44,593 nt of DNA from a virus. Shown in pieces: positions 14,944 through 40,540 of the stretch. Both the position numbers and the translations under genes were made by a program. Each line of letters starts with the position of its first letter. Positions within the stretch are counted from its first letter, which is position 1. The DNA is taken from positions 1-44,593 of the IMG/VR virus record IMGVR_UViG_3300050821_002307. The stretch is one strand, 5' to 3'. Below the pieces are notes generated by a model. It did no database searches. It saw only the letters and a list, made by a program, of their open reading frames with translations, and was not told the origin of the DNA.

Positions 14944-15349
14944 GAAAAAATGCACGAAATGCGGTGCAGCTAAATCGGTAGACGAATTCTATCGTAATAG
15001 CGGCCGTCGCTTTAAAGGCGCCTATCACGCGGGGCGGCACCACCATTGCAAAACATGCAGCAAAAAGCGCGTCGCTTTACTCAAGGCGCACAAAAAAGGG
15101 CTAGCACCGTCGCTTGTATGCGACTACGTGGCCGATGATTTAGCGCATGCCGGCGCGTGCCAATGCTGCGGGCTGCCTGAACCGATTAAGGGGCGTAGCC
15201 TAGCATGGGATCACGATAAGAAAACGGGCGCTATCCGCGGATGGCTTTGTTCGTTTTGTAATATGGGTATCGGGATGCTAGGGGACAATGCCGAGGGCGT
15301 CGCAAAGGCACTAGCGTATTTAAGCAAAGTTCCCGGGAACATCGCATGA
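14930..15349 (+). CDS. Endonuclease VII-like protein inserted in the baseplate module
   Basis: 139 residues from TTG 14930, chosen because GAGG lies 9 nt upstream; the frame extends further upstream only as a shadow of the plug gene. Zinc motifs: C-T-K-C-G at 8-12, C-K-T-C at 40-43, then the endonuclease VII core C-Q-C-C-G (77-81), L-A-W-D-H-D (Asp94, His95), and G-W-L-C-S-F-C-N (107-111). Members cut branched DNA or act as homing nucleases. It overlaps both neighbours (14 nt and ATGA), typical of a mobile insertion. The end carries a 12-bp palindrome repeated at 38504. Confidence 0.75.
   Translation: MPASKKKCTKCGAAKSVDEFYRNSGRRFKGAYHAGRHHHCKTCSKKRVALLKAHKKGLAPSLVCDYVADDLAHAGACQCCGLPEPIKGRSLAWDHDKKTGAIRGWLCSFCNMGIGMLGDNAEGVAKALAYLSKVPGNIA
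15326..15344 (+). repeat. 19-bp element with 12-bp palindrome, copy 1
   Basis: AAAGTTCCCGGGAACATCG, the same 19 bases as at 38501-38519. The core GTTCCCGGGAAC is a perfect palindrome. Here it encodes the end of the endonuclease VII-like protein (S-K-V-P-G-N-I). Confidence 0.8.
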
Positions 15350-16287
15350 ATACGCTATATACGGTTAAGAATCTCAGAGTGACTTTTACCCTGTCCAATT
15401 CCAACGCGGTTTTTCCCGGTACTACCGCAAATCAGCTACAGGTGTCAGGACTGCGCATGTCCGCCGTGATTAAGGGCGCGGGCCTGCCGGCGTTCCCCGA
15501 GGCATCGCTTAGAATCTACGGCATGGCGCAGCAAGATATGAACGCATTGGCCGTAGTGCAAGTGCTCGTCGGTAAGCCGCAGTACACGCGGAACATCGTA
15601 CAAATTGAGGCCGACAGTGGCAATGGGTTTTCGTTCGTGTTCTCGGGCCAAATCATTCAAGCCGGCCCCGACTACTCTAACGCCCCCGATGTGTGTCTAT
15701 ACGTGCAATCCGTGTCACTCGGCCTCGACCAATTGGCGCCCGCGAAACCGATTTCGTATCCTGGCGTGGCCAACGTGGCCGACATCATAGGCGGCATTGC
15801 GTCAGGCATGGGCCTCGCGTTCGAAAATGACGGCGTGACCGGCACTCTGACGAACGCGTACTATTCCGGCACGCTGGCGGATCAATTGCGCACCGTCTGT
15901 AAGGACGCCGGCATTTACTACGCGATTGAACCGGCTACGCCGAATTTGCTGGTCATCTCGCCGGCCGGCGTGTCCCGTCAAAACCTGACGGCATTCACGC
16001 TGACGCCCTCGTCAGGATTGGTCGGATACCCTGAAGTGCTCGGCAATGGCTACCTCAATGTGCGATCGATTTTCAATCCAGCATATCGCATGAATGGGCC
16101 GATCACGATTCAGGGGAGTGACGTGGTTATTGACGCATCGTTGCCGAAAACGCTGAACACGCTGGCGGATGGCAATTGGCTGATAGGGCCGCTGACGCAC
16201 ACGCTTGAGTCGCAGAAACCGGGCGGGGCGTGGTTTACCGATATGAAACTTTACCCCGAGAACGCGCCCCCGCCCCCCGTATCATGA
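15346..16287 (+). CDS. Baseplate hub protein
   Basis: 313 residues. Pattern of hub proteins of the gp27/gpD/Mu gp44 group: N-terminal beta domain, P-A-K-P-I-S-Y-P-G-V-A-N-V-A-D-I-I, L-A-D-Q-L-R-T-V-C-K-D-A-G-I-Y-Y, then L-I-G-P-L-T-H-T-L-E-S-Q-K-P-G-G near the end. The hub forms the central cylinder below the tube and holds the spike, encoded by the next gene with an ATGA overlap. Confidence 0.7.
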   Translation: MNTLYTVKNLRVTFTLSNSNAVFPGTTANQLQVSGLRMSAVIKGAGLPAFPEASLRIYGMAQQDMNALAVVQVLVGKPQYTRNIVQIEADSGNGFSFVFSGQIIQAGPDYSNAPDVCLYVQSVSLGLDQLAPAKPISYPGVANVADIIGGIASGMGLAFENDGVTGTLTNAYYSGTLADQLRTVCKDAGIYYAIEPATPNLLVISPAGVSRQNLTAFTLTPSSGLVGYPEVLGNGYLNVRSIFNPAYRMNGPITIQGSDVVIDASLPKTLNTLADGNWLIGPLTHTLESQKPGGAWFTDMKLYPENAPPPPVS

Positions 16288-26704: not shown

Positions 26705-27204
26705 TTAAAGTAAGCCTCCGCGATGGCTCGATATTCAGTTTCACCCCAGTTATGAAGCGCTGCGTTCAACCCCCAAAGTATGACGCGGCAATTATCCTCC
26801 GTGTATCCTTTAGCGCAGTCGCGTCGGTCTACGCTCGGGGATCGCGATTTCCGGCCTTGGTTTGCGGGCTGTAACTCGAATGACAGTCCCGTCAATTCAC
26901 AACCTTTTTCAATTCGCGCCATCGCCCATCCGACGGTTAGACTAAATTCAATTCCTTTTTTCCGGGCACGGTCCTTACATGCGCTGATTATCTCCCCTGC
27001 CCGCCCCCGAATTGTGACGAATGATTTTTGTCTAGCCCGACGTTGAACGACGGCGACTTTCTGAGGGTTAGCCGCTCGATATCGTTTCATATCCGCACGC
27101 CCTTGTTCACGCCGCACGCCTCCGTCAGTTCGATAACTGGCGCGACGTGCAGCGTTATATTCTTCTCGGGTGCGAGCTACCAAGGTATGCAATCCTCGTC
27201 GCAA
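26692..27204 (-). CDS. HNH-like homing endonuclease next to the polymerase gene
   Basis: 170 residues. A basic, Arg-rich N-terminal half (A-R-T-R-E-E-Y-N-A-A-R-R) is followed by C-E-L-T-G-L-S-F and S-P-S-V-D-R-R-D-C-A-K-G-Y-T-E-D-N-C-R, the same type of core as in the protein at 7374. It overlaps the polymerase start, and homing genes often sit beside polymerase genes. Nuclease activity is inferred from the pattern only. Confidence 0.6.
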   Translation of the reverse strand: MRRGLHTLVARTREEYNAARRASYRTDGGVRREQGRADMKRYRAANPQKVAVVQRRARQKSFVTIRGRAGEIISACKDRARKKGIEFSLTVGWAMARIEKGCELTGLSFELQPANQGRKSRSPSVDRRDCAKGYTEDNCRVILWGLNAALHNWGETEYRAIAEAYFKCFP

Positions 27205-28672: not shown

Positions 28673-29790
28673 GTGGTCTTGAAACTCCGTGGTGTCTTCG
28701 TGGAATCGGGAACTAGTTTGAACGCTCCGCGTGGTCGGTCACTATACTGATTGACAATCTTGTCAGCAAGTATTTTTCGCTGTATCGCTTGCGTGGGCGT
28801 AATTGGCTGAGACGGTGCCATGATGGATTTGCCCGACAGTCGCGCGGTCATTTCAATCACGTCTAAATCCATCGTCCACGCCAAGCGGCCCATGGTTTGT
28901 TCCATGCTAAAGTACGGCACGCGATCGCCGCGGCGTATCATGCCCTCGGCCAATGCGGACAATCCCGTCTCACGCGCCTCAAGCCGTTTTATGAACTCCT
29001 GTACCAGCTTGAGTTCCCGGCCCACATCCTCGGGCGTGGATGCCATCGGATCGGCACGGCCCGCGAAATCAATCGTGCTCATGATCGTTTTACGATACGT
29101 GCCGCACGTTGCGCGGGCCGGGCAATACGTGCAATGCGTGCCGCTGATAACCCGGGGCTTAGCTGACTCGGCCTCCTCGACGGCGTAGCGCATCCGCTGA
29201 GCGTAGTGTCTCAGTCCTTCGCCCATGATTGTCCACGTGCGGATCGGTTTGCCGTTGTAATAGCGCGGTTGCACTACGGTCATTTCGTAGCGTACTTCCG
29301 GGTCGTCAAACACGCCGAGCTCATCGGCCATACCGACCATATAGGTAAGCAACTGCCAGCACTCGAATTCATCTACGAATCCGTGGCCGAATTTGTAATC
29401 AGCGGCCCTTAGGATTTTCGATGGTGCGGCCCACTGGCGCGCGTCGGGCGTACCCCAACACTTGGTCGGATGTATCCGTGTGATTTGTACGGGCGCCTCG
29501 ATTCGCGCCGGATAGCCCTCAAGCGCTTCAATCCATAGGGCGGCACCGTCTAGCATTTCCTCGGTTATCTCGACGCCGTTCGGTGCCGGTTTGCCTAATA
29601 ACTCAGGGTCGACAACGCCGGCAGGCCCCGCCAATGCCATCGTAGCCGCTACCCAATGCCCCGCGTCGCCCTCGCGCGTCGCTTCTGTATCGGTCTCGGG
29701 CGGCATGAGCAACGATTGCTTGCGCCACCCGGGGCACGCGACCGTCAAATACATACTTGACGGGGCGTACTCGGCGTGAGTTCCGGTCAT
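28669..29790 (-). CDS. Cas4/RecB-like PD-(D/E)XK nuclease (DUF2800)
   Basis: 373 residues. Nuclease motifs: G-D-A-G-H-W-V-A (His45), G-T-P-D-A-R-Q-W (Asp116), A-D-Y-K-F-G-H-G (Asp131, Lys133), W-Q-L-L-T-Y (Gln146). Cys20, Cys220, Cys223 and Cys229 are placed like the [4Fe-4S] cluster ligands of Cas4/AddB-type nucleases: one distal N-terminal and three after the core. DUF2800 genes lie beside DUF2815 genes in phage replication modules, as here. Likely role: single-strand end processing in recombination-dependent replication. Confidence 0.8.
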   Translation of the reverse strand: MTGTHAEYAPSSMYLTVACPGWRKQSLLMPPETDTEATREGDAGHWVAATMALAGPAGVVDPELLGKPAPNGVEITEEMLDGAALWIEALEGYPARIEAPVQITRIHPTKCWGTPDARQWAAPSKILRAADYKFGHGFVDEFECWQLLTYMVGMADELGVFDDPEVRYEMTVVQPRYYNGKPIRTWTIMGEGLRHYAQRMRYAVEEAESAKPRVISGTHCTYCPARATCGTYRKTIMSTIDFAGRADPMASTPEDVGRELKLVQEFIKRLEARETGLSALAEGMIRRGDRVPYFSMEQTMGRLAWTMDLDVIEMTARLSGKSIMAPSQPITPTQAIQRKILADKIVNQYSDRPRGAFKLVPDSTKTPRSFKTT

Positions 29791-31035: not shown

Positions 31036-31064
31036 ACTCTATGCCAACCTGACGCCCCTGTCAA
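31036..31064 (-). promoter_or_regulatory. Leftward sigma70-type promoter with embedded operator-like palindrome
   Basis: On the minus strand: -35 TTGACA (31059-31064, perfect), 17-bp spacer, -10 TAGAGT (31036-31041). The start of transcription would be near 31029, 32 nt before the GTG at 30997. The palindrome TGACG-CCCC-TGTCA (31050-31063, one mismatch) covers the -35 box, and the stretch TTGACAGGGGCGTCAGGTTG matches elements at 34279, 38462, 39502 and 39579. Confidence 0.7.
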
Positions 31065-31152
31065 CCGCGAGGCTACATGAGATATTTGCCGGGCATTTTC
31101 TATATTATTGGTTCGGTTTGTTTTATCGTAGGAACTGTGATAGGCATGATTC

Positions 31153-32865
31153 GTGCTTCGTGATTTTCAAGCCGAATTAAAGCAACGCACGTATGACGCA
31201 TGGGGCCGCGGGGCCCGTAACGTCATGGTCGTTGCTCCCACGGGGGGCGGTAAAACCGTACTGTTCTGCAATATCGTCGCGGAACTCGGGCTACCCACGG
31301 TTCTGATTAGCCATCGGCAAGAACTCGTCGGGCAGGCTGCGTTAGCCCTGAACCGTGAGCAAGTGCCGCACGGCATAATCGCCCCGCAGGCCATCCAAAA
31401 ACAGATTATAACGCTGGAACAGGAGACACACGGCCGCAGTTTTTTCAGCCCGCGCGCCGCCGTCCGCGTAGCTGGTGTTCAAACGCTTATCAACCACGAT
31501 CCGGTCGACCCCTGGTTGCGGCACGTCGGGCTAGTCGTGCAGGATGAAGGGCACCACGTCGCCAATGATAACGTTTGGATGCGTGCCCATTCAATGTTCC
31601 CGGCGGCGCGCGGCCTCCTCGTCACAGCCCATGCCCTACGCGCCGACGGTCGCGGCCTCGGCCGCCCTCCGCTTGGCGACGGTCTCGTGGATGAATTGAT
31701 CGTAGGGCCATCTGCGCGTCAAGTTATTGATCGTGGATTTCTATGCGACTACCGGCTAATTGCCCCTCCATCCGACGTGCATATGGAGGACGAAGACATA
31801 GGCGATTCCGGCGAATATAAGCAGGACCGAGTACGTAAACGCGTGCATCAATCAAAAACGATCGTAGGCGACGTGGTTAAGCATTATCTCAAATGGGCCG
31901 CCGGCAAACTCGGTATTACCTTCGCTGTCGATATTGAATCGGCAACGGAAATTGCTGCGAAATATAACAGCGCTGGCGTGGGTGCTGAAATCATTACAGC
32001 CAAGACGCCGCTACACGTTCGCGGCCAATTGATGCGGCAATTCAGGGCGCGCAAACTCCTACAGTTAGTTTCGGTCGATGTCTTGGGTGAGGGCGTGGAC
32101 GTGCCGGCCGTCGAAGTCGTTAGCATGGCACGCCCGACGGCTTCGTTTCAGTTATATTCGCAACAGTTCGGCCGCGCGCTACGGCTCATGCTGACTGACG
32201 AACAAAACCGTACATGGAATGATCGCACCGACGCGCAACGCCTTGCCGAAATCGCCACGAGTGTCAAGCCCAAGGCGATTATCATAGATCATGTTGAAAA
32301 TTACATGCACCACGGCCTACCGGATGTCGAACGCTCGTACACGCTAGCACGGGCCGACCGACGCAGCCGCAAGAAAAAATCCGACGAGATACCCTTACGG
32401 TATTGTACGAATAACGACTGCCTGTATCCGTACGAGGTAACGCTGTCTGAGTGCCCCAAATGCGACACGCCCCGCCCGGCGCCGGCACGCCGCGGCACGC
32501 CCGAGGAAGTAGACGGCAATTGCTTCGAACTCGATCCGGCCGTGCTCAGCCGCATGCGTAAAGAGCAAGCCCTAATCGACGGCCCGGCCCGGCCGCCGGT
32601 CGGCGTGGCGCCGGCAGTCGCCGGGGCGATACGTAGGAATCACGCGCAGCGGCAAGAGGCGCAGCACGAACTACGCCAGGCCATGGCATTATGGGCCGGC
32701 TGGCGTACTCACGTGGGGCGGGAACCCGCGGAAGTGCAGCGTGAGTTCTTCTATAAATTTGGCCGGGACGTGCTGAGCGCTCAAGTGCTCGGGGCGACCG
32801 AGGCCGAGGAGTTGCGTGCACGGATCGCCGCGGAACTTGATTTAAATCGGATCGTGGCGGCGTAA
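31153..32865 (+). CDS. DEAD/DEAH (SF2) helicase
   Basis: 570 residues from GTG 31153. Motif I A-P-T-G-G-G-K-T (28-35), Ia I-S-H-R-Q-E-L, II D-E-G-H-H (131-135), VI Q-Q-F-G-R-A-L-R (337-344). A zinc ribbon follows (Cys418, Cys423, Cys434, Cys437). Motif III reads T-A-H-A where the usual form is T-A-T-P, a departure at a conserved site. Residues 440-570 are helical and charged. It is first in a rightward block with HNH, nuclease and primase genes. The intergenic DNA upstream (31065-31152) is AT-rich but I find no good plus-strand promoter. Confidence 0.8.
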   Translation: MLRDFQAELKQRTYDAWGRGARNVMVVAPTGGGKTVLFCNIVAELGLPTVLISHRQELVGQAALALNREQVPHGIIAPQAIQKQIITLEQETHGRSFFSPRAAVRVAGVQTLINHDPVDPWLRHVGLVVQDEGHHVANDNVWMRAHSMFPAARGLLVTAHALRADGRGLGRPPLGDGLVDELIVGPSARQVIDRGFLCDYRLIAPPSDVHMEDEDIGDSGEYKQDRVRKRVHQSKTIVGDVVKHYLKWAAGKLGITFAVDIESATEIAAKYNSAGVGAEIITAKTPLHVRGQLMRQFRARKLLQLVSVDVLGEGVDVPAVEVVSMARPTASFQLYSQQFGRALRLMLTDEQNRTWNDRTDAQRLAEIATSVKPKAIIIDHVENYMHHGLPDVERSYTLARADRRSRKKKSDEIPLRYCTNNDCLYPYEVTLSECPKCDTPRPAPARRGTPEEVDGNCFELDPAVLSRMRKEQALIDGPARPPVGVAPAVAGAIRRNHAQRQEAQHELRQAMALWAGWRTHVGREPAEVQREFFYKFGRDVLSAQVLGATEAEELRARIAAELDLNRIVAA

Positions 32866-33221
32866 TGGCAGCCCGTACCGGCGTCGCGTACCGCGACATG
32901 GAAGAGCGGTTAATCCGAAACTCCGTACTTGACCCCGTAACCGAATGTTGGGATTGGATCGGTGCCCGCGACAAACGAGCGTCAACGCCCTACGGCAAAA
33001 TGACCGTTTACGACGAGGAGGGCGGCCGGCGGGTGCGTCAGGCGCATCTTGTAAGCTACGAAACATTCATCGGCCCGATACCCGACGGTCACGAGATAGA
33101 CCATACGTGTCGAAACAGCTATTGTATTGCGCCCTATCACCTTGAACCAGTGCTGCCGGCTGTTAACAAACAGCGGCGCAAATTCAAGCACACTGCGAGG
33201 AGTGACGCGTATGTCGGCTAG
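32865..33221 (+). CDS. HNH homing endonuclease
   Basis: 118 residues; ATG overlaps the helicase stop (TAATG). Family pattern: C-W-D-W-I-G-A-R, T-P-Y-G-K-M, Q-A-H-L-V-S-Y-E, G-P-I-P-D-G-H-E-I-D-H (Asp79, His80), T-C-R-N-S-Y-C-I-A-P-Y-H-L-E (Cys82, Cys87, His92) and N101. All residues expected of this HNH type are present, so it is probably active. The next gene starts within its last codons. Confidence 0.8.
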   Translation: MAARTGVAYRDMEERLIRNSVLDPVTECWDWIGARDKRASTPYGKMTVYDEEGGRRVRQAHLVSYETFIGPIPDGHEIDHTCRNSYCIAPYHLEPVLPAVNKQRRKFKHTARSDAYVG

Positions 33222-33594
33222 TGAGTCAAACGTTTCGAGTCGCGGGCGCCTCGCCGCTGTCGCCAAACGCTGGCGACTATGGCGCAATCAGCGCGGGGCC
33301 GGCAAACTCGAATCCGGTAATTACGTGCGGTTCGGCCTCGCCAACGATTCGCCGGCCCTCGGCAAGAAACTGAAATCAGGCGACTATATCGGCTGGCGCC
33401 CCGTGGTCATCACAGCCGATATGGTCGGTAAAGTCATCGCGCAATTCGTCAGCGTGGAATTTAAAGAGGAAGACTGGACGCCGCCCCCGCGCGACACGAA
33501 GGACGAACACGCTGCCGGCCAATATAATTGGGCCGATTTGGTCAACCGCGAGGGCGGCTACGCGGTTTTCGTCAGTGATCCCGATAAACTATGA
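33211..33594 (+). CDS. VRR-NUC-like nuclease
   Basis: 127 residues from ATG 33211, chosen for AGGAG 7 nt upstream. Active-site pattern of the VRR-NUC branch of PD-(D/E)XK nucleases: V-R-F-G-L near 40, S-G-D-Y-I-G-W (Asp58), F-V-S-V-E-F-K (Glu83, Lys85), A-G-Q-Y-N-W (Gln104). Members cut branched or flap DNA. Position in the replication block fits Holliday junction or fork processing. ATGA overlap with the next gene. Confidence 0.7.
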   Translation: MSASESNVSSRGRLAAVAKRWRLWRNQRGAGKLESGNYVRFGLANDSPALGKKLKSGDYIGWRPVVITADMVGKVIAQFVSVEFKEEDWTPPPRDTKDEHAAGQYNWADLVNREGGYAVFVSDPDKL

Positions 33595-34281
33595 GTGCTT
33601 ACTATAATGAGATTGACCCTAAAGCTGCGGCTTGGCTTCGCGAACTTATCAAAGGCGGCCACATTGCAGCGGGCGACGTTGACGAACGATCAATCGCCGA
33701 CGTGCAACCTGACGACCTTATCAGCTACACACAATGCCATTTCTTCGCCGGCATCGGCGGATGGTCCTATGCACTGCGCCTCGCAGGATGGCCTGACGAT
33801 CGCCCCGTGTGGACGGGAAGCTGTCCGTGCACCACTCACAGCACGGCCGCGAGGGGAAAGAACACTGAGCGTGATTGGTGGCCGTACTGGCAACGCCTCA
33901 TTGCTGCAAAAGCGCCTACTGCAATCTTTAGCGAGCAAGTTGCCAATGTCGCATCTTGGTTCGATGTCGTTCTGCGATGACTTGGAGGACTTGGGCTACA
34001 CCGTCGGGGCGGCAGTTCTCCCGGCTGTCAGTGTCGGCGCGGACCATATCCGAAACAGGCTTTACTTTGTTGGCGACGCCAACCAGTACGGGAAATCAAA
34101 CTGCGAAATCCATGCAAAAGCACAAAGGATGCCGGGGGATCGTCGTCAGTCCGTCCGAATGGGGCCGCCGGATGGGATACCCCGTAGAATGGCTATACGC
34201 GGCTTTGGAAACGCAATCGTTCCGCAAGTCGCGGCCGAGTTTATCGGCGCCTACCTAGATATTTCTGACGACAACCTGTAA
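33591..34281 (+). pseudogene. Broken cytosine-5 DNA methyltransferase (Dcm-like), frameshifted and shortened
   Basis: Frame of 33591: F-F-A-G-I-G-G-W-S-Y-A (SAM site), T-G-S-C-P-C (catalytic Cys) and S-E-Q-V-A-N-V, ending at 33980. The next frame continues the family from about 33971: D-D-L-E-D-L-G-Y-T-V-G-A, V-G-A-D-H-I-R-N-R-L-Y-F. A third frame has T-P-T-S-T-G-N-Q and R-R-M-G-Y-P-V-E-W-L (about 34093-34200), and the second frame returns for G-F-G-N-A-I-V-P-Q-V-A-A-E-F-I. P-C-Q of the family reads P-C-T. At about 230 codons it is also short. Read errors are an alternative for the frame changes. Confidence 0.8.
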
Positions 34282-34298
34282 CCTGCCAAACCTGTCAA
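34279..34298 (-). promoter_or_regulatory. Copy of the TTGAC-N-GTCA element upstream of the HTH gene
   Basis: Minus strand TTGACAGGTTTGGCAGGTTA, matching the elements at 31045, 38462, 39502 and 39579; the palindrome TGCCA-AACC-TGTCA spans 34284-34297. No good -10 follows on the minus strand. It lies 18 nt before the TTG of the TetR-like gene, so an operator role is more likely than a promoter role. The same stretch also has four spaced CCTG repeats. Confidence 0.45.
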
Positions 34299-34315
34299 CC
34301 TGGAGTTAAATCACC

Positions 34316-34612
34316 TTGGATAAGCAAACGATTCTAGACGCCGCCGTGACTCTCGCCGCAACCCGCGGATATGAGAACGTTTTCAAACGAAATATTTCAT
34401 CCGTGCTCGGTATCGGCATGGGCACTGTCAACTACCATTGGGGCACTATGGACGCCCTACGCACCGCGATCATTCACGAGGGCATACGGACGGGCAACAA
34501 ACCCGTGGTCCTGCAGGCCGCCTCCCGGCGCGATCCGATCCTATGGCGCAAGAACCTGTCGCCGGCACTGCGTGAAAAACTCGACACTCTCGGTATTGAT
34601 GTCAACGCGTGA
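34316..34612 (+). CDS. TetR-like HTH DNA-binding protein
   Basis: 98 residues from TTG 34316, with GGAG about 11 nt upstream. Residues 4-50 follow the TetR N-terminal pattern: I-L-D-A-A-V-T-L-A-A-T-R-G-Y-E, R-N-I-S-S-V-L-G-I-G-M-G-T-V-N-Y-H-W-G-T-M. The ligand-binding half of TetR is missing. It is the only clear transcription-factor-like protein in the window and ends with an ATGA/GTGA-type overlap onto the primase gene. It could bind the palindromes described here; that is inference. Confidence 0.65.
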   Translation: MDKQTILDAAVTLAATRGYENVFKRNISSVLGIGMGTVNYHWGTMDALRTAIIHEGIRTGNKPVVLQAASRRDPILWRKNLSPALREKLDTLGIDVNA

Positions 34613-35088
34613 GCCCGTTCCACGCTTGGAACGATAAGCATATTTACATCGTTTGGCGCGGCTCGGATAAGTCGCCCATCAACCCGTTGCATTCGGCGCC
34701 TGAGTCGGATTTCGCGCGTTCGAACGCGCAAGATTCGGCCACGTGGCTGTCGTGGGAACTCGCTAGCGAGTATGCCCGAGCGCTCGGCCCGGGCTATGGC
34801 GTCGGCGTGGTCATTCACGAGGGTTCCGGCCTGCTATGCGTCGACCTTGATAAATGCATTCACGAGGGCATTGTATCGGAATTGGCTGTGCGTCTGGTTC
34901 GTGAGGCCCGGCGGGCGTGCCCTGCCGTGTACGTGGAATTCAGCATGTCCGGCAAGGGATTGCACATAATCGGGCCGTACTCGGGGGCGCCGCCGGACCA
35001 CCGCAACAAAAATAAAGAGCTCAAAATGGAGCTATACTCCCGTGAACGGTACATTGCACTGACCGGCAATTTACTAGGCCCTCTATGA
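34609..35088 (+). CDS. DNA primase half (AEP/PrimPol-like)
   Basis: 159 residues from GTG 34609. Primase signature: A-T-W-L-S-W-E, G-V-G-V-V-I-H, L-L-C-V-D-L-D-K-C (Asp79, Asp81), Y-V-E-F-S-M-S-G-K-G-L-H-I (His119) and M-E-L-Y-S-R-E-R-Y-I-A-L-T-G. In many phages this domain is fused to the VapE-type helicase; here the two are separate genes with an ATGA overlap. It should make primers for the family A polymerase. Confidence 0.7.
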   Translation: MSPFHAWNDKHIYIVWRGSDKSPINPLHSAPESDFARSNAQDSATWLSWELASEYARALGPGYGVGVVIHEGSGLLCVDLDKCIHEGIVSELAVRLVREARRACPAVYVEFSMSGKGLHIIGPYSGAPPDHRNKNKELKMELYSRERYIALTGNLLGPL

Positions 35089-36770
35089 CGCAAGATTTAA
35101 CGGATTTCTTTTGGGGCCTCGCAGCAACGTATTTCGTCCCGTTGCCGCCGGTCACAGTCGATGAACTGACAGACGCGGCAGCGTGGCCCGTGGTCGGTAT
35201 CGAAACCGTTAAACGTATCAAGCCGCGATTCGCTCGGATGCTTGAGGGTGAACGGTTCTACGCTGACGAGTCGGACCACGATTTAGAGTTTGTCTGTTAC
35301 GCCCTAGAAGCGTTCGGCGGTAACGGGCAGGCGACACTTGAATGGCTCCAATCGGACCACGGATATCGATTCTCAGCCAAGAAAACCGACCGCATGGGGT
35401 ATTACCTACCCCGCACTATCATTCATGCGTACGACCGGCTACGCGACGACCCGATTGTAAATGTCAAATTCGGCGGCGACCTACCGGCCGGCGCATCCAT
35501 GACGCCAGTAGCCAAACCGGCGCCGCCCCCTATGGTCATACCCGACGATTTGCCCGAGGCCGGGATACTCCGGATGAACGGCAAACTTGAATTCGAGCCG
35601 ACGCTAAAGGCTATCGTCTACACGCTGGCAAAACAGTCCGCATCCGTAACGATCGGCTTCGATGAATTCTACGATCGGGTCGTGGTCGCCCCGGCCGGCA
35701 CTGAGAAATGGCGGCCCATATCTGATAACGACATGATCCAATTACGTGAGACTTTCGAGCGCGAACTACGGTTTGCCCCTGTCAGCAAGGAACTTATGCG
35801 CGATGCGCTAGAGCTTGTCGCATCTCGGCATTGCTTCGATAGCGCCATTACGTGGCTTGACGGGCTGCAATGGGATGGCGTGCCTCGCGTCGCTCAATTC
35901 CTGTCGACCTACTGCGGTACCGTCGACGATGAGTATACGCGCGCCGTGAGCATGTATATTTGGACAGGCATGGCGGCCCGCGTGCTCGAACCCGGCTGTC
36001 AGCTTGATATGGTCGTAGCGTTCCAATCCCCGCAGGGCAAAATGAAATCCACGGGATTCCAGGCCATGGTGCCCACGGAAGATTGCTTCACAGACGGACT
36101 GTCACTCCACGAGGACGACGACAATTTCAAGCGCCTACTGCGCGGTAAACTCGTGATCGAAGTCGCCGAAATGGCGGGGCTATCTAAGGCCGACATCGGG
36201 CTTGTCAAGCGCGTCATAACGCGCCGTATTGAGGAATGGATCGAAAAATTTAAAACGCACCCGTCGCGCTTCAAACGCCGCTGCATGCTATTCGCGTCCA
36301 CGAACGAACCGCAATTTCTACCGCCCGATGAGACGGGCCATCGTCGCTGGCTCCCCGTCGAGGTTACGATGCTTGACCGTGAACGGATCGCCGCCGATCG
36401 CAATCAACTATGGGCCGAGGGCGCAGCACAGTGGACGCAGCGCCGCGCAACGCTCGGGGTCGCCCACGGCGTGGCATGGCAGGACGCGGAGCGCCTAGCG
36501 GCCGGCAGGCACACGAAGTACGAACAGACAGATATATGGGAAATGGCGATAGAAAAATGGCTAACCGCGCCGGGCCTCGACGGCGCTTCCCCGCCGAGCA
36601 ATCGACCGATCGCGCTAAATGAAATTCTGACAGGGGCTATCGGCCTCAACACGGCGCATCAAGACTCCAAAGCAGAGAAACGGGCCGCCCGGGTAATGCG
36701 TCAATTAGGGTACGAATCGCGCCCCGCCCGAGTGGACGGCAAGCTAGTCAAACGTTGGGTCGCGCGCTAG
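35085..36770 (+). CDS. Primase-associated helicase (VapE/VirE type)
   Basis: 561 residues. Residues 1-130 resemble the linker region of primase-helicases; 235-500 carry the VapE core: W-L-D-G-L-Q-W-D-G-V-P-R, P-loop Q-S-P-Q-G-K-M-K-S-T (314-323), F-T-D-G-L-S, L-V-I-E-V-A-E-M-A-G, S-T-N-E-P-Q-F-L and D-E-T-G-H-R-R-W-L-P-V. It probably unwinds DNA with the primase encoded upstream. Its TAG stop and the stop of the opposing gene share CTAG at 36767-36770. Confidence 0.8.
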   Translation: MTQDLTDFFWGLAATYFVPLPPVTVDELTDAAAWPVVGIETVKRIKPRFARMLEGERFYADESDHDLEFVCYALEAFGGNGQATLEWLQSDHGYRFSAKKTDRMGYYLPRTIIHAYDRLRDDPIVNVKFGGDLPAGASMTPVAKPAPPPMVIPDDLPEAGILRMNGKLEFEPTLKAIVYTLAKQSASVTIGFDEFYDRVVVAPAGTEKWRPISDNDMIQLRETFERELRFAPVSKELMRDALELVASRHCFDSAITWLDGLQWDGVPRVAQFLSTYCGTVDDEYTRAVSMYIWTGMAARVLEPGCQLDMVVAFQSPQGKMKSTGFQAMVPTEDCFTDGLSLHEDDDNFKRLLRGKLVIEVAEMAGLSKADIGLVKRVITRRIEEWIEKFKTHPSRFKRRCMLFASTNEPQFLPPDETGHRRWLPVEVTMLDRERIAADRNQLWAEGAAQWTQRRATLGVAHGVAWQDAERLAAGRHTKYEQTDIWEMAIEKWLTAPGLDGASPPSNRPIALNEILTGAIGLNTAHQDSKAEKRAARVMRQLGYESRPARVDGKLVKRWVAR

Positions 36771-36973
36771 TACGGTGGACGTTTCGTCAGCGGGAAACAG
36801 GTTTTAAGTTCTCGGTCGAGGCCGCGGCACATAAGGCACGCAGCGGCAACGAAAACGACGTAGGCGAGGACAAACAAAACGGCGATGACTATCACTAGGC
36901 GTACTCCCGCAACGGCAATTTTTTCGATTTCAAGCTCCGACTCTATGGGCCGGCGGCGCGTAACGTAGCGCAT
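36767..36973 (-). CDS. Small membrane protein
   Basis: 68 residues from ATG 36973; a longer frame upstream is a shadow of coupled genes. A charged start (R-R-R-P-I-E-S-E-L-E-I-E-K) leads to one long membrane segment (V-R-L-V-I-V-I-A-V-L-F-V-L-A-Y-V-V-F) and a short basic tail. Last gene of the leftward small-gene array; function unknown. Confidence 0.5.
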   Translation of the reverse strand: MRYVTRRRPIESELEIEKIAVAGVRLVIVIAVLFVLAYVVFVAAACLMCRGLDRELKTCFPLTKRPPY

Positions 36974-37088
36974 TCGGGTCGCCGTTTCGTTTCCAGCGTC
37001 GATAATGCATGAGGCACCAACCCCGCGAATGATGCACCCGGGCACATCGTTTGATTGCGCAACGGCGCACTTCGTCATACTTAGGCAC
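36930..37088 (-). CDS. Zinc-finger fragment of an HNH-type protein
   Basis: 52 residues from GTG 37088. R-R-C-A-I-K-R-C, then R-G-W-C-L-M-H-Y-R-R-W-K-R-N-G-D-P is the zinc finger that opens many phage HNH proteins, but the frame ends before any HNH core. It may be a remnant or a stand-alone finger. It overlaps both neighbours. Confidence 0.5.
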   Translation of the reverse strand: MPKYDEVRRCAIKRCARVHHSRGWCLMHYRRWKRNGDPNALRYAPPAHRVGA

Positions 37089-37260
37089 GTTCGCATTTCT
37101 GACAGTGACAAGCCGATAATACTCCAAACGCGGAACGTTTTGCATAGGTCGGTGCGTACCGGCGCGCGGCCCCGTTCCAATATCGCACCGTCCCGCAACG
37201 GGCCGCGATGAGCGTTTTACAGCTATCGCAGATGGCGGCGCGTACGTTGGTTTTGCTCAT
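37081..37260 (-). CDS. Small zinc-ribbon protein (59 aa)
   Basis: ATG 37260 overlaps the stop of the upstream gene (ATGA). Pattern I-C-D-S-C near 11-14, C-G-T-V-R-Y-W-N-G, and C-H-C-Q-K-C near the end give two Cys pairs for a zinc ribbon. Small early phage proteins of this kind often inhibit or redirect host factors, but no target can be named. Confidence 0.65.
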   Translation of the reverse strand: MSKTNVRAAICDSCKTLIAARCGTVRYWNGAARRYAPTYAKRSAFGVLSACHCQKCERA

Positions 37261-37517
37261 TTCACTGCGGCATCAGATTGTGTCGCCTTTACCGGGCGCT
37301 CGTTTTCGTATGGCATGAAGCCTTCGCCCCATTCCGCATAATCGTCGGCCGCAGCCTTGTCGCATTCGAGGTGAAACTTGTTGGACCCTGGATCGCCCTC
37401 GAACACGAATCGCGTGCGCACGTATACCTCTCCGACCGGGATAGGTTGGCCGCACCAGGAACATTTATGCTCCTTGCGGGCGCGATGCGTGCTCTCGGCA
37501 ATTGTCGTGCAACTCAC
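37257..37517 (-). CDS. Small zinc-finger protein
   Basis: 86 residues from GTG 37517, with GGAGAG 8 nt upstream and GTGA coupling to the gene before. K-C-S-W-C-G-Q-P-I-P-V-G-E-V-Y-V-R and F-H-L-E-C-D form a CxxC-H-C finger seen in many phage proteins. Function unknown. Confidence 0.7.
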   Translation of the reverse strand: MSCTTIAESTHRARKEHKCSWCGQPIPVGEVYVRTRFVFEGDPGSNKFHLECDKAAADDYAEWGEGFMPYENERPVKATQSDAAVK

Positions 37518-37735
37518 GGCTTAATCTCTCCGCTGGCCCGGAAACCGGCCATAAATGCGCCCCAAAGAGCGCCCTCCAAATGCGGATGGCTGATGGTCGA
37601 TTGGTTATCGACTATGGACACGGATATGGCAGATCCCCACTTCGCCGCGTTTCGGCCATCCTCCGAGCCTTTCCACGCTTTCCAAGCGATCATCAACGGA
37701 TCGTCGTCGGGCACCTTGCCCATATTTTCACCCAT
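37514..37735 (-). CDS. Small hypothetical protein
   Basis: 73 residues from ATG 37735 with a strong GGAGAGG site. Contains D-P-L-M-I-A-W-K-A-W-K and L-E-G-A-L-W-G-A-F-M-A-G-F, a pattern common in small early phage proteins. Function unknown. Confidence 0.65.
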   Translation of the reverse strand: MGENMGKVPDDDPLMIAWKAWKGSEDGRNAAKWGSAISVSIVDNQSTISHPHLEGALWGAFMAGFRASGEIKP

Positions 37736-37922
37736 GCTTCACCTCTCCGCTGGTAGGTGGGCCAAGCACCCGCCCGAACGCAACGCGCCACACGTCCTGT
37801 ATGGCCGCCATCCGCAGTATTGCCTGTTCCTCGGGCGTGCCGATCGTAATACCGCGTTCGCGCATCAACGCCGCGTATTCGGCCGCCACGGTGTATAACT
37901 GTTCGGCCGTGGCGGGCATCAT
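37728..37922 (-). CDS. Small helical protein
   Basis: 64 residues from ATG 37922 (a second ATG at 37919); the frame upstream is a shadow. The upstream gene ends in ATGA here. Helical: A-E-Q-L-Y-T-V-A-A-E-Y-A-A-L-M-R-E-R and E-E-Q-A-I-L-R-M-A-A. Function unknown. Confidence 0.6.
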   Translation of the reverse strand: MMPATAEQLYTVAAEYAALMRERGITIGTPEEQAILRMAAIQDVWRVAFGRVLGPPTSGEVKHG

Positions 37923-38098
37923 TTCAACGCCGCCCGGGCCCGCTTTACGGCCTCGACTACGATCAGGTCGTGCAATAGATGCACGGGCAATACGGCGAGG
38001 AGGCCCCGTAGCGCTTCGGCCGGCGTGGGCGATGCCTGTACGCGGGCCGGGGGGCATACGCAGCGGCCGTGCGGGGCGCAATCGGGGCATACGTTCAT
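37919..38098 (-). CDS. Small Cys-rich protein (59 aa)
   Basis: ATG 38098 overlaps the upstream stop (ATGA), and its own stop overlaps ATG 37922. Starts M-N-V-C-P-D-C-A-P-H-G-R-C-V-C, four Cys and a His for metal binding, then a helix with L-L-A-V-L-P-V-H-L-L. Function unknown; the double coupling supports translation. Confidence 0.6.
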   Translation of the reverse strand: MNVCPDCAPHGRCVCPPARVQASPTPAEALRGLLAVLPVHLLHDLIVVEAVKRARAALK

Positions 38099-38292
38099 AA
38101 CCGTGCGGCCCGTTTCGCCGCACGATGCCGGCGTCGACGCTCAGCCGCAGCGATCCGTTCGGCCTCTAGTGCACTGCCGGCCGGCGCGCGTTCCGTGTGT
38201 ATGCGGTTGCCGTCGGTAATGGTCGGGAACCGTAGCGTACCGCCGGTCAGCCCCATGATGAGGGCGGCGGCTATATTCTGGTCTTTCAACAC
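38095..38292 (-). CDS. Small basic protein
   Basis: 65 residues from GTG 38292, chosen for AGGAG about 10 nt upstream. Q-N-I-A-A-A-L-I-M-G-L-T-G-G-T-L-R-F-P is followed by a strongly basic helix (E-R-I-A-A-A-E-R-R-R-R-H-R-A-A-K-R). It could bind nucleic acid. Stop overlaps the next ATG. Confidence 0.55.
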   Translation of the reverse strand: MLKDQNIAAALIMGLTGGTLRFPTITDGNRIHTERAPAGSALEAERIAAAERRRRHRAAKRAARL

Positions 38293-38354
38293 GTTAGAAA
38301 TACTCCTATGAGAGAAACGAGCACCCCGAGCAATGCGTATGTTTGCGGCCTCAT
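38286..38354 (-). CDS. Membrane microprotein (22 aa)
   Basis: ATG 38354 overlaps the stop of the gene before (ATGA), with AGGA about 10 nt upstream. Nearly all of it is one membrane helix (Y-A-L-L-G-V-L-V-S-L-I-G-V-F-L). It holds the AGGAG site of the next gene within its coding sequence. Translation is inferred from coupling. Confidence 0.45.
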   Translation of the reverse strand: MRPQTYALLGVLVSLIGVFLTC

Positions 38355-38446
38355 GATTTTCGCATCCTATCACGAGCGGCGGCGAATCGGTCGACGTACC
38401 GGTACGGCTGTAGGCGGTCGAGAATCCAGTTAATTAGACGTTTCAT
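38351..38446 (-). CDS. Basic microprotein (31 aa), possibly leaderless
   Basis: ATG 38446, no ribosome site; the -10 box CAGAAT lies only 6 nt upstream, so transcription would begin at or next to the ATG. Sequence has an amphipathic start (R-L-I-N-W-I-L-D-R-L) and many Arg. Stop overlaps the next ATG. It is the first gene below the promoter at 38453-38481. Confidence 0.45.
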   Translation of the reverse strand: MKRLINWILDRLQPYRYVDRFAAARDRMRKS

Positions 38447-38452
38447 GGCGCT

Positions 38453-38481
38453 ATTCTGGTACAACCTGACAACCGTGTCAA
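38453..38481 (-). promoter_or_regulatory. Leftward promoter with perfect TTGACA and embedded palindrome
   Basis: Minus strand: TTGACA (38476-38481), 17-bp spacer, CAGAAT (38453-38458). The palindrome TGACA-ACCG-TGTCA (38467-38480) covers the -35 box. TTGACACGGTTGTCAGGTTG differs from the element at 31045 at only four positions. It should drive the small-gene array down to 36767. Confidence 0.65.
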
Positions 38482-38500
38482 GACGCGCGTCACACTTTCG

Positions 38501-38519
38501 AAAGTTCCCGGGAACATCG
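38501..38519 (+). repeat. 19-bp element with 12-bp palindrome, copy 2
   Basis: Identical to 15326-15344. The 12-bp palindrome GTTCCCGGGAAC (38504-38515) is joined to a 10-bp palindrome CTTTCGAAAG (38495-38504). Here it is intergenic, between the stop of the 38549 gene and the promoter at 38453. Read in the matching frame it would again spell S-K-V-P-G-N-I. Confidence 0.75.
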
Positions 38520-38548
38520 GCCGTCCTGACCGACGTCCCCGGGGGTTC

Positions 38549-38764
38549 TCACGGCGTCATGCGCCATAGCCACGTCACCGCACGTTGCAAGCAGGCCAGT
38601 TCCATGGCAGCGCTATCCGCTGCGGCCTGCGCCCCTTGGCTCGTTTTCGCCAATGCCTCTAGACGGCTGTAATCGTCCAGTAACTTCAGCATGTGGGCCC
38701 TCGCCGCCCGCAACAAACAGCGACGCTCTTGGTCGTCGACCGGATCATACCTACCCGGTGTCAC
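38549..38764 (-). CDS. Small hypothetical protein
   Basis: 71 residues from GTG 38764, GTGA overlap with the upstream gene. Helical: D-Q-E-R-R-C-L-L-R-A-A-R-A-H-M-L-K-L-L-D. No known domain. Confidence 0.55.
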   Translation of the reverse strand: MTPGRYDPVDDQERRCLLRAARAHMLKLLDDYSRLEALAKTSQGAQAAADSAAMELACLQRAVTWLWRMTP

Positions 38765-39447
38765 GCTGCGATACGTGCCACGGCCGGCACCCTCCGCACG
38801 TGGCCCCGAAACACTGCCTCGGGTTTCGTGTGGATCACGGTCGATTCGCCGTGGTCAGGGGTTCCGGGCAGTTCGTCGAGGGCAGCCTGTAACGTCGCTA
38901 TGACGCGTTCCAGGTGCTCCCGGGCAATCTCGGGCCCCTCACGGGCCACGGCGGCGAGTATGGCCGTCTGTGCCCTCTCGATACGCGTCGTCACCGTACC
39001 CCCGCCTTCACGCTTGGCCGTGACAGCCGCCCTCAGTAGCCCTTTCGTGACCGTGGCCACGTCCAGCCCTCGCACGTCGCCGCCGGCCTCAATCCAAGCC
39101 ACTAACGTGCTCTTCGCTGTACGTGCGAACGTGGCCCTACGGTTGCGCTCCCGGGTGCGTCGGGTCGTCTCTGCGGCTTCCAGCGTGGCCGCTAGTTCAA
39201 TGTCGCCGGTTATAACGCCCCGTAGCACTGCCGCGTAGAACGGCCCCGCGATCAGTTCAAGCGCTTCCAATTGCGCTTCGTCGTTGGGCCGCCGTCCGCG
39301 TTTGGGCCCGAGCTTCGATTGTGTCCCGGCCACGAGGGCCCTCAGATACGTCCCTGCCAGACCATCGGCCAATACTACCGACGTAGTGCGCTCGGCGGCT
39401 AATGCCTCAATCTGTGCTTCCGTCATTACATACTGATTTTTACTCAC
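38761..39447 (-). CDS. Hypothetical helical early protein
   Basis: 228 residues from GTG 39447 with GGAG about 9 nt upstream. All helical and rich in Ala, Arg and Glu: M-T-E-A-Q-I-E-A-L-A-A-E-R, K-L-G-P-K-R-G-R-R-P, T-R-R-T-R-E-R-N-R-R-A-T-F. The basic middle might bind DNA, but I recognise no family. It is the largest gene in the leftward small-gene region and is preceded by two operator-like palindromes. Confidence 0.6.
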   Translation of the reverse strand: MSKNQYVMTEAQIEALAAERTTSVVLADGLAGTYLRALVAGTQSKLGPKRGRRPNDEAQLEALELIAGPFYAAVLRGVITGDIELAATLEAAETTRRTRERNRRATFARTAKSTLVAWIEAGGDVRGLDVATVTKGLLRAAVTAKREGGGTVTTRIERAQTAILAAVAREGPEIAREHLERVIATLQAALDELPGTPDHGESTVIHTKPEAVFRGHVRRVPAVARIAA

Positions 39448-39501
39448 TTCCCTTACTCCTATTTGGTAGAAAACCCGGTCGTTATTGACCGTGGAGTGAG
39501 G

Positions 39502-39521
39502 TTGACACGCGTGTCAGTTTA
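39502..39521 (+). promoter_or_regulatory. Perfect palindromic operator-like site
   Basis: TTGACACGCGTGTCAGTTTA; TGACACGCGTGTCA at 39503-39516 is a perfect 14-bp palindrome. The plus-strand direction gives TTGACA with only a weak -10 (CAATAC, 17 bp away), and no plus-strand gene follows, so binding by a regulator is more likely than promoter use. It lies in the 152-bp AT-rich gap before the gene at 39447. Confidence 0.55.
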
Positions 39522-39578
39522 ACGCAATACCTAAAAACAAATAATTATGTAAGGTAAACACTGTAGGTTATGTAAGAC

Positions 39579-39598
39579 CAATCTGACACGCGCGTCAA
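39579..39598 (-). promoter_or_regulatory. Operator-like site and weak leftward promoter
   Basis: Minus strand TTGACGCGCGTGTCAGATTG; palindrome TGACACGCGCGTCA at 39584-39597 with one mismatched pair. A weak -10 (TTACAT at 39570-39575, 17-bp spacer, or TACATA one base on) would drive the 39447 gene with a leader of about 110 nt. Its centre is 81 bp from the palindrome at 39503. Confidence 0.5.
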
Positions 39599-40026: not shown

Positions 40027-40115
40027 ACGAAGAACCGCAGCACAAAACACGTGGCCAGCGCAACGGTCACGAGACGCCAGGCCCACGCGGGGTAACACAG
40101 TCGACAGTCGTTCAT
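40023..40115 (-). CDS. Membrane microprotein (30 aa)
   Basis: ATG 40115 overlaps the upstream stop and its own stop overlaps ATG 40026. A short N-terminus with C-R-L-C is followed by one hydrophobic helix (L-V-T-V-A-L-A-T-C-F-V-L). Double ATGA coupling supports it. Confidence 0.5.
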   Translation of the reverse strand: MNDCRLCYPAWAWRLVTVALATCFVLRFFV

Positions 40116-40315
40116 GTGTGCTGCCCGCCCGTGAGCGCTACGCACATCGGCACCACGATCCGGCCGGCGCCGTCGGGTTTCTGGAATCCCGTCTGAAACT
40201 GTGCGCGTTCGCATTCATCGAGCGTTTTATACGGGCCGCTCATCTCGGTGCGGTTGATTTCCTCGCCCGTGAATATGTTTAACGTTATCGCCATTAGAAA
40301 TAACACAGTGGTCAT
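40112..40315 (-). CDS. Small protein with N-terminal hydrophobic segment
   Basis: 67 residues from ATG 40315, coupled to the gene before (ATGA). Residues 2-14 are hydrophobic (T-V-L-F-L-M-A-I-T-L-N-I-F); then S-G-P-Y-K-T-L-D-E-C-E-R-A and P-M-C-V form a small soluble part with two Cys. This resembles exported or membrane-anchored small phage proteins of unknown role. Confidence 0.6.
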   Translation of the reverse strand: MTTVLFLMAITLNIFTGEEINRTEMSGPYKTLDECERAQFQTGFQKPDGAGRIVVPMCVALTGGQHT

Positions 40316-40506
40316 GGGGCTATCCGTTGTTGGTAGAGTTGATGTTCTCGCAGTCGGCTGAGCGGAATATACCGCCCGAGGTGCCATAGGCAGATGCGGC
40401 AGGTTATAGCGTCGGCGTCCTCGCTCGTGAGGGCGTCCGAACCGCATACCGCGGAGCGGAAACGGTTATCGATATCTCGGGCATGTACTTTTCGTAGCTG
40501 CGGCAC
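40312..40506 (-). CDS. Small zinc-binding protein, possibly leaderless
   Basis: 64 residues from GTG 40506. A-V-C-G-S-D-A-L and I-T-C-R-I-C-L-W-H-L contain a possible zinc site. No ribosome site; the -10 box TATTGT ends 6 nt before the GTG. Stop overlaps ATG 40315. Confidence 0.5.
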   Translation of the reverse strand: MPQLRKVHARDIDNRFRSAVCGSDALTSEDADAITCRICLWHLGRYIPLSRLREHQLYQQRIAP

Positions 40507-40512
40507 TGCGGG

Positions 40513-40540
40513 ACAATACCACGCCCGCCACGCGTGTCAA
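40513..40540 (-). promoter_or_regulatory. Leftward promoter candidate
   Basis: Minus strand: TTGACA (40535-40540), 16-bp spacer, TATTGT (40513-40518). The site TGACACGCGTGGCG is 12 of 14 identical to the palindrome at 39503. It overlaps the stop of the gene at 40537. Confidence 0.5.

Follow-up and report, generated by a model that had tools for sequence, protein, structure and literature searches.

In the IMG/VR virus record IMGVR_UViG_3300050821_002307, a virus contig of 44,593 bases and 59% GC that we analysed as a whole (the window), we identified a dispersed interrupted palindrome, YTGACR-N4-YGTCAR. It is probably the operator of a repressor encoded by the phage itself, a minimal TetR-type protein that would control its own gene and switch off early promoters, most of them leftward. 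A 20-bp element at five places had previously been proposed to mark a phage regulon under one protein (the original prediction). Comparative evidence supports such a regulon, and its protein can now be named: a TetR_N helix-turn-helix (HTH) protein predicted at 34316–34612.

The repeated unit is a palindrome

All five 20-mers (31045, 34279, 38462, 39502 and 39579) occur as proposed, with zero mismatches to TTGACR-N4-YGKCAGNTTR. At three mismatches or fewer, this pattern has 34 matches in the window against 8.3 expected, a count that no shuffle reached. We then screened every 4-mer and 5-mer half-site at spacers of 0–12 in the window and in four viral contigs (L005–L008), each of which encodes a protein closely related to the small TetR-like one of the window. 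The top interrupted palindromes were TGAC-N6-GTCA (41 found, 3.2 expected) and TGACA-N4-TGTCA (16 found, 0.16 expected). The alignment of sites yields the consensus YTGACR-cgcg-YGTCAR, and the flanks beyond these 16 positions carry at most 0.09 bit. The 20-bp element therefore does not stand as a unit; the real one is this palindrome of 14–16 bp, without the unconserved GNTTR tail.

The exact core, TGACR-N4-YGTCA, occurs eight times in the window and 14, 6, 2 and 9 times in four relatives, with no match to a backwards control pattern in any of them; allowing one mismatch, the window has 23 copies (4.4 expected). Contigs fetched later, which had no part in forming the idea, show the same excess (L034, 12 vs. 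0.33 expected; L035, 4 vs. 0.21; L032, 3 vs. 0.27), and one of the three, of 52 kb, carries 22 exact sites, the maximum per genome, with zero control matches. A scoring matrix trained on the four relatives, with the window excluded, ranks the five predicted sites 1, 2, 3, 6 and 9 in the window, the ranks between them being filled by 28751, 42797, 16000 and 26880. The original list thus holds for its five members; it missed these four sites, all within genes, and a weaker one at 40525.

The palindrome overlaps promoters

At promoters, the palindrome begins on the second −35 base, runs on into the spacer and is centred near −27. A −10-like xAxxxT follows palindromic TTGAC at exactly 17 bp in 18 of 45 cases in the window family and in 19 of 41 cases in Jedunavirus and Peatvirus PEAT2, compared with 6% for non-palindromic TTGAC; no comparable peak occurs at other spacings. 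The true share of palindromes with a −10 at 17 bp must be higher, because perfect palindromes were counted on both strands. This exact preference bears out the predicted position over the −35 hexamer. The −10 hexamers claimed at 31045 and 38462 are present at 17 bp, a weaker one at 39579 had been omitted, and 39502 and 34279 have none.

As regards direction, the promoter-bearing sites at 31045, 38462, 39579 and probably 40525 all point leftward, as predicted, and of the five leftward promoters that the depositors of the Klebsiella phage KpV52 marked, four contain the palindrome, which is whole in none of the rightward ones. Leftward control is nevertheless not the full account, given the copy at the rightward tetR gene and the rightward copies in relatives. 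That the controlled transcripts are early is read from gene content only.

Since binding between −35 and −10 should exclude RNA polymerase, the protein is most likely a repressor, for which a site in the −35 and spacer region is the expected position. MerR-like activators need spacers of 19–20 bp; with the 17-bp spacers found here, a reader of this kind was rejected.

A minimal TetR-type protein and the site at its gene

The proposed regulator is the following gene product.

34316–34612, plus strand: TetR_N (PF00440) helix-turn-helix protein, 98 amino acids, start codon TTG

It matches Pfam PF00440 (1.5e-7; 31.5 bits, cut-off 24) and phrog_8723 (1e-17), and TetR-family proteins lead in a profile search of the PDB (best 4.5e-7). 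Its AlphaFold model has a mean pLDDT (predicted local distance difference test) of 88.9, and the best PDB matches of this model in Foldseek are all of the TetR family (probability 1.00, E about 1e-2); the E value stays near 0.01 presumably because the rest of the TetR-family length has no counterpart in a protein of 98 amino acids. Only some 40 residues follow the helices of the HTH domain, and the usual C-terminal ligand-binding and dimerisation domain of about 100–150 amino acids is not there. The TetR-like proteins of SppYZU01 (L021) and Scuro (L023) are longer (166 amino acids): a second, degenerate HTH-like repeat precedes the TetR_N domain, as if duplicated. No relative of the regulator was found among 84,980 species genomes, and hence no prophage context; 14 TetR proteins proved too divergent for their alignment to serve as a search query.

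The palindrome, or a one-mismatch form of it, lies just upstream of tetR in the window and in six of the seven relatives examined (L005–L008, L034 and L035; it was not found in L032), and likewise in Jedunavirus, PEAT2, Scuro and PEi21. In L035, L008, KpV52, PEAT2, Scuro and PEi21, it overlies the −35 of tetR's own promoter. This site is imperfect in the window (TGGCA), L005, L034, L035 (TGGCA/G), L006, L007 and Jedunavirus/PEAT2 (TGACC), and exact in L008, Scuro and PEi21. A weaker self-operator would be what an autoregulator that shuts its targets first needs. On these sequence grounds, the 98-amino-acid protein is very likely the reader of the palindrome.

Recognition helix and palindrome vary together

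Isolated phages that infect Klebsiella, Pectobacterium, Pantoea, Edwardsiella, Vibrio and Acinetobacter show the same pairing of protein and site. An excess of palindromes goes with recognition helices of the form xG[TSI] (MGTVNYHW, MGTINHHW, MGSVNHHW, QGTINHHF, TGTVSFAF, TGIVSYYY and HGTVLRYY), as seen in KpV52 (14 found vs. 1.85 expected), PEAT2 (17 vs. 2.06), CP-T1 (9 vs. 1.25), Scuro (5 vs. 0.54), AAM22 (13 vs. 1.98) and PEi21 (13 vs. 1.42). Helices with TPPAL, TPQAI, STALI, AAPSL, SGQTI, ADGLI or TDGLV come without it (0–3 found, 0.2–1.1 expected): there is no clear excess in PD0307 (0 vs. 0.66), SFCi1 (2 vs. 0.81), AeroV_348 (2 vs. 1.09), VP16C (1 vs. 0.9), R9Y3 (0 vs. 0.18), phiPLPE (1 vs. 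0.61), Psp6 (3 vs. 0.77) or 97.13 (3 vs. 0.73). AAM22 and 97.13 behaved as the first phage set predicted. The rule was narrowed for phiPLPE and Psp6 (DGL) and widened for PEi21 (GI). The link between helix type and palindrome is a strong correlation, not proof. In the genome of SppYZU01, TGAC and GTCA tetramers are extremely rare, so that 0.03 palindromes are expected; two are present, and the half-site is strongly avoided elsewhere.

Proposed operators and gene context in the window

The operators and operator-like sites of the window are listed below; strand is given where one was assigned.

31049–31064, minus strand: operator (predicted at 31045) over the −35 (31059–31064, TTGACA), −10 at 31036–31041 (TAGAGT), spacer 17 bp
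38466–38481, minus strand: operator (predicted at 38462) over the −35 (38476–38481), −10 at 38453–38458 (CAGAAT), spacer 17 bp
39583–39598, minus strand: operator (predicted at 39579) over the −35 TTGACG, weaker −10 at 39570–39575 (TTACAT), spacer 17 bp
39502–39517: second operator near the open reading frame (ORF) of 228 amino acids, top-scoring site, without a −10 of its own
34283–34298, minus strand: operator copy at tetR (predicted at 34279), TTGACA-GGTT-TGGCA, one mismatch (TGGCA for TGTCA)
28751–28766: operator within the exonuclease gene, some 80 nt short of its 3′ end and preceding p28 and the gene for the single-stranded DNA-binding protein (SSB), with a leftward TATAGT nearby
26880–26895, minus strand: operator within the endonuclease VII-like ORF that precedes DNA polymerase, without a −10; 0.20 expected per genome at this score
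40525–40540, minus strand: imperfect operator, leftward TTGACA-16-TATTGT; 1.1 expected at this score
42797–42812: operator inside the large terminase gene
16000–16015: operator-like palindrome inside the gene at 15346–16287

The operator at 31049 stands between the leftward and rightward gene arms, at the leftward promoter of the p30, exonuclease, SSB and polymerase genes, and occupies the same place in the relatives G001, G004 and G005. That at 38466 belongs to the leftward promoter of a cluster of small genes; on the minus strand of 38440–38481, CCATGAAACG is found within about 10 nt after the −10 CAGAAT of this promoter, and the first small ORF behind it may have a leaderless or nearly leaderless mRNA. 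The operator at 39583 lies at a leftward promoter upstream of the 228-amino-acid ORF (38761–39447). The one at 39502 is 56 nt before the same ORF (52 nt in G005) and 81 bp, centre to centre, from the 39583 operator, with which it possibly forms a looping pair; between 39502 and 39598, the two near-perfect operators enclose an AT-rich stretch with two TTACAT repeats.

The proposed autoregulatory site at 34283 lies between the stop of the methyltransferase gene and the start of tetR, without a −10 at 17 bp; the 20-mer predicted at 34279 begins on the stop codon of the methyltransferase ORF. The 28751 operator has a counterpart in G001 at an equal offset (77 nt), and in KpV52 a site falls between exonuclease and SSB. 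The site at 40525 is a candidate promoter for 40112–40447; G001, G002 and G004 carry an exact site near this position.

The gene order is that of Jedunavirus, with DNA polymerase, a Gp2.5-like SSB and exonuclease leftward, and helicase, TetR and primase rightward, and the regulator gene belongs to the replication operon. The cytosine methyltransferase (33591–34281) is split over two overlapping frames (33591–33980 and 33595–34281) with a Pfam match to the C-terminal part only, and may have been truncated or frameshifted. Over 175 bases, its DNA shares about 80% identity with the methyltransferase of Bordetella phage PHB09. A methyltransferase fragment was all that megablast of the right part of the window retrieved from the phage collection; no close cultured relative, and with it no host, was found there. 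The best terminase matches reach about 45% at most, and a VapE query matched one viral contig and no more.

Copies inside genes

Counting genes of at least 300 bp, called by a simple script, we found 18 intragenic sites against 1.5 expected after shuffling of synonymous codons. Pure protein-coding coincidence is thereby rejected for these sites in sum; the coding copies, being 12-fold above expectation, look like extra sites rather than noise. Another 18 sites lie outside genes, in 26 kb. By raw count, coding DNA is thus hit as often as non-coding DNA, which the original prediction had held against a regulon; by density, sites are 4.4-fold more frequent outside genes. The intragenic copies may be roadblocks, silencers or titration sites.

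The palindrome at 16000 recurs at the same place in the structural gene in G001 (13535) and G005 (38367), with differing spacer bases among the three phages. At the terminase site, five phages use the same codons, GCT GAC AAR CGY GTC AGT (AAT for AGT in one). Six-codon windows elsewhere in this gene are equally conserved, and the codon identity is only suggestive of a kept operator.

Proposed mechanism and alternatives

The sites, the palindromic unit, its overlap with promoters, its conservation, its link to the regulator gene and the helix correlation were computed; from these, we infer binding, repression and timing. On entry, the near-consensus promoters, ordinary sigma70 promoters with 17-bp spacing, would fire. 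A dimer of the 98-amino-acid protein, that is, a DNA-binding domain with a short helical tail, would bind YTGACR-N4-YGTCAR and, placed between −35 and −10, would exclude RNA polymerase. As the regulator accumulates from the replication operon, the early leftward operons would be turned off; finally, it would repress itself via its own, usually weaker, operator.

The palindrome might instead be read by a host regulator. We hold this to be very unlikely, for the same palindrome is enriched in phages of six bacterial genera, is absent from phages whose homologue has another recognition helix and accompanies the tetR gene of the phage in almost all relatives. Even less credit is due to the idea of ordinary sigma70 promoters that are strong, have a spacer in common and carry no protein on the palindrome. 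TTGACA is indeed the −35 consensus and −10 hexamers do follow at 17 bp, but the excess of the palindrome, taken as a unit, is confined to one spacing, its second half is symmetric beyond the searched core, Jedunavirus keeps the symmetry with the non-consensus −35 TTGACG, and many copies lie in genes without a −10, above the synonymous-shuffle expectation.

The same protein and operator could also serve lysogeny or immunity instead of a shut-off during the lytic cycle. Operators dispersed over early promoters, together with intragenic copies, resemble the system of the Cluster A mycobacteriophage immunity repressor (PMC6550527), and CP-T1, which has both helix and palindrome, behaves as temperate without known lysogeny genes (PMC3391216). 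Against this, the window proteins scanned showed no recognisable integrase or CI-like family, no relative of the regulator was found in the species genomes, and Jedunavirus and PEAT2 are reported to be lytic; we regard a lysogeny repressor as unlikely. A slightly better, still low, chance is given to a genome-wide silencer in phages without known lysogeny genes, in which the minimal TetR-type protein, acting at promoter operators and intragenic roadblock operators, would keep the entire genome quiet and give an integrase-free carrier or pseudolysogenic state, as reported unexplained for the Vibrio phage CP-T1.

Several observations weigh against a repressor of early promoters as the complete explanation. 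Promoter exclusion does not account for the half of the sites that lie in genes and have no −10; relative G003 has only two exact sites; and no convincing promoter accompanies the tetR copy in the window. Part of the helix rule was fitted in retrospect, as a first version allowing GL would have mispredicted phiPLPE and Psp6; SppYZU01 (helix MGL), with its two palindromes, is an ambiguous case. Moreover, the relatives share phylogeny and are not independent samples.

The repressor proposed here pairs a widespread, uncharacterised phage gene with an operator and targets, and its function is now directly testable in cultured phages (Jedunavirus on Klebsiella, PEAT2, CP-T1 and Scuro). It suggests a role as phage-wide regulator for a bare TetR DNA-binding domain, provides a candidate cause of the temperate behaviour of CP-T1, so far unexplained, and draws attention to operators kept within conserved genes.

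Comparison with known systems

The tetR genes of Jedunavirus, Peatvirus and the phiPLPE group (PMC3391216) are homologous to the one described here, and Jedunavirus and PEAT2 share the replication module too. Comeau et al. (PMC3391216) described the tetR genes of CP-T1, 138 and phiPLPE as regulators of cellular type; in temperate CP-T1, they found no genes for lysogeny. The accounts we found of these phage genes name the gene only, without operator, target or role, and no description of the operator was found in the literature searched, in which subscription papers are little covered. T7 Gp5.7 and other small phage repressors of promoters used by the host RNA polymerase have a different fold, and the abstract of that account (PMC5569994) describes no dispersed palindromic operator system like the present one.

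TetR-family autorepressors (PF00440; TetR, EbrR and AcrR type) have in common with our system the TetR_N HTH, a palindromic operator, a site at the regulator's own gene and overlap with a promoter hexamer. They differ from it in size, the 98 amino acids here being too few to include the usual ligand-binding and dimerisation domain, and in the number of operators: one or two there, up to about 20 per phage genome here, often intragenic. The stoperators of Cluster A mycobacteriophages (L5, Bxb1; PMC6550527), the nearest analogue, are likewise served by one phage DNA-binding protein, with one operator at the early promoter that points leftward, numerous others scattered over the genome and often away from promoters, and covariation of sites and repressor. 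Stoperators are, however, asymmetric 13-bp sites, mostly in one orientation, of temperate phages, whereas the operator described here is a symmetric, orientation-free palindrome paired with a TetR-type protein in phages without recognised lysogeny genes.

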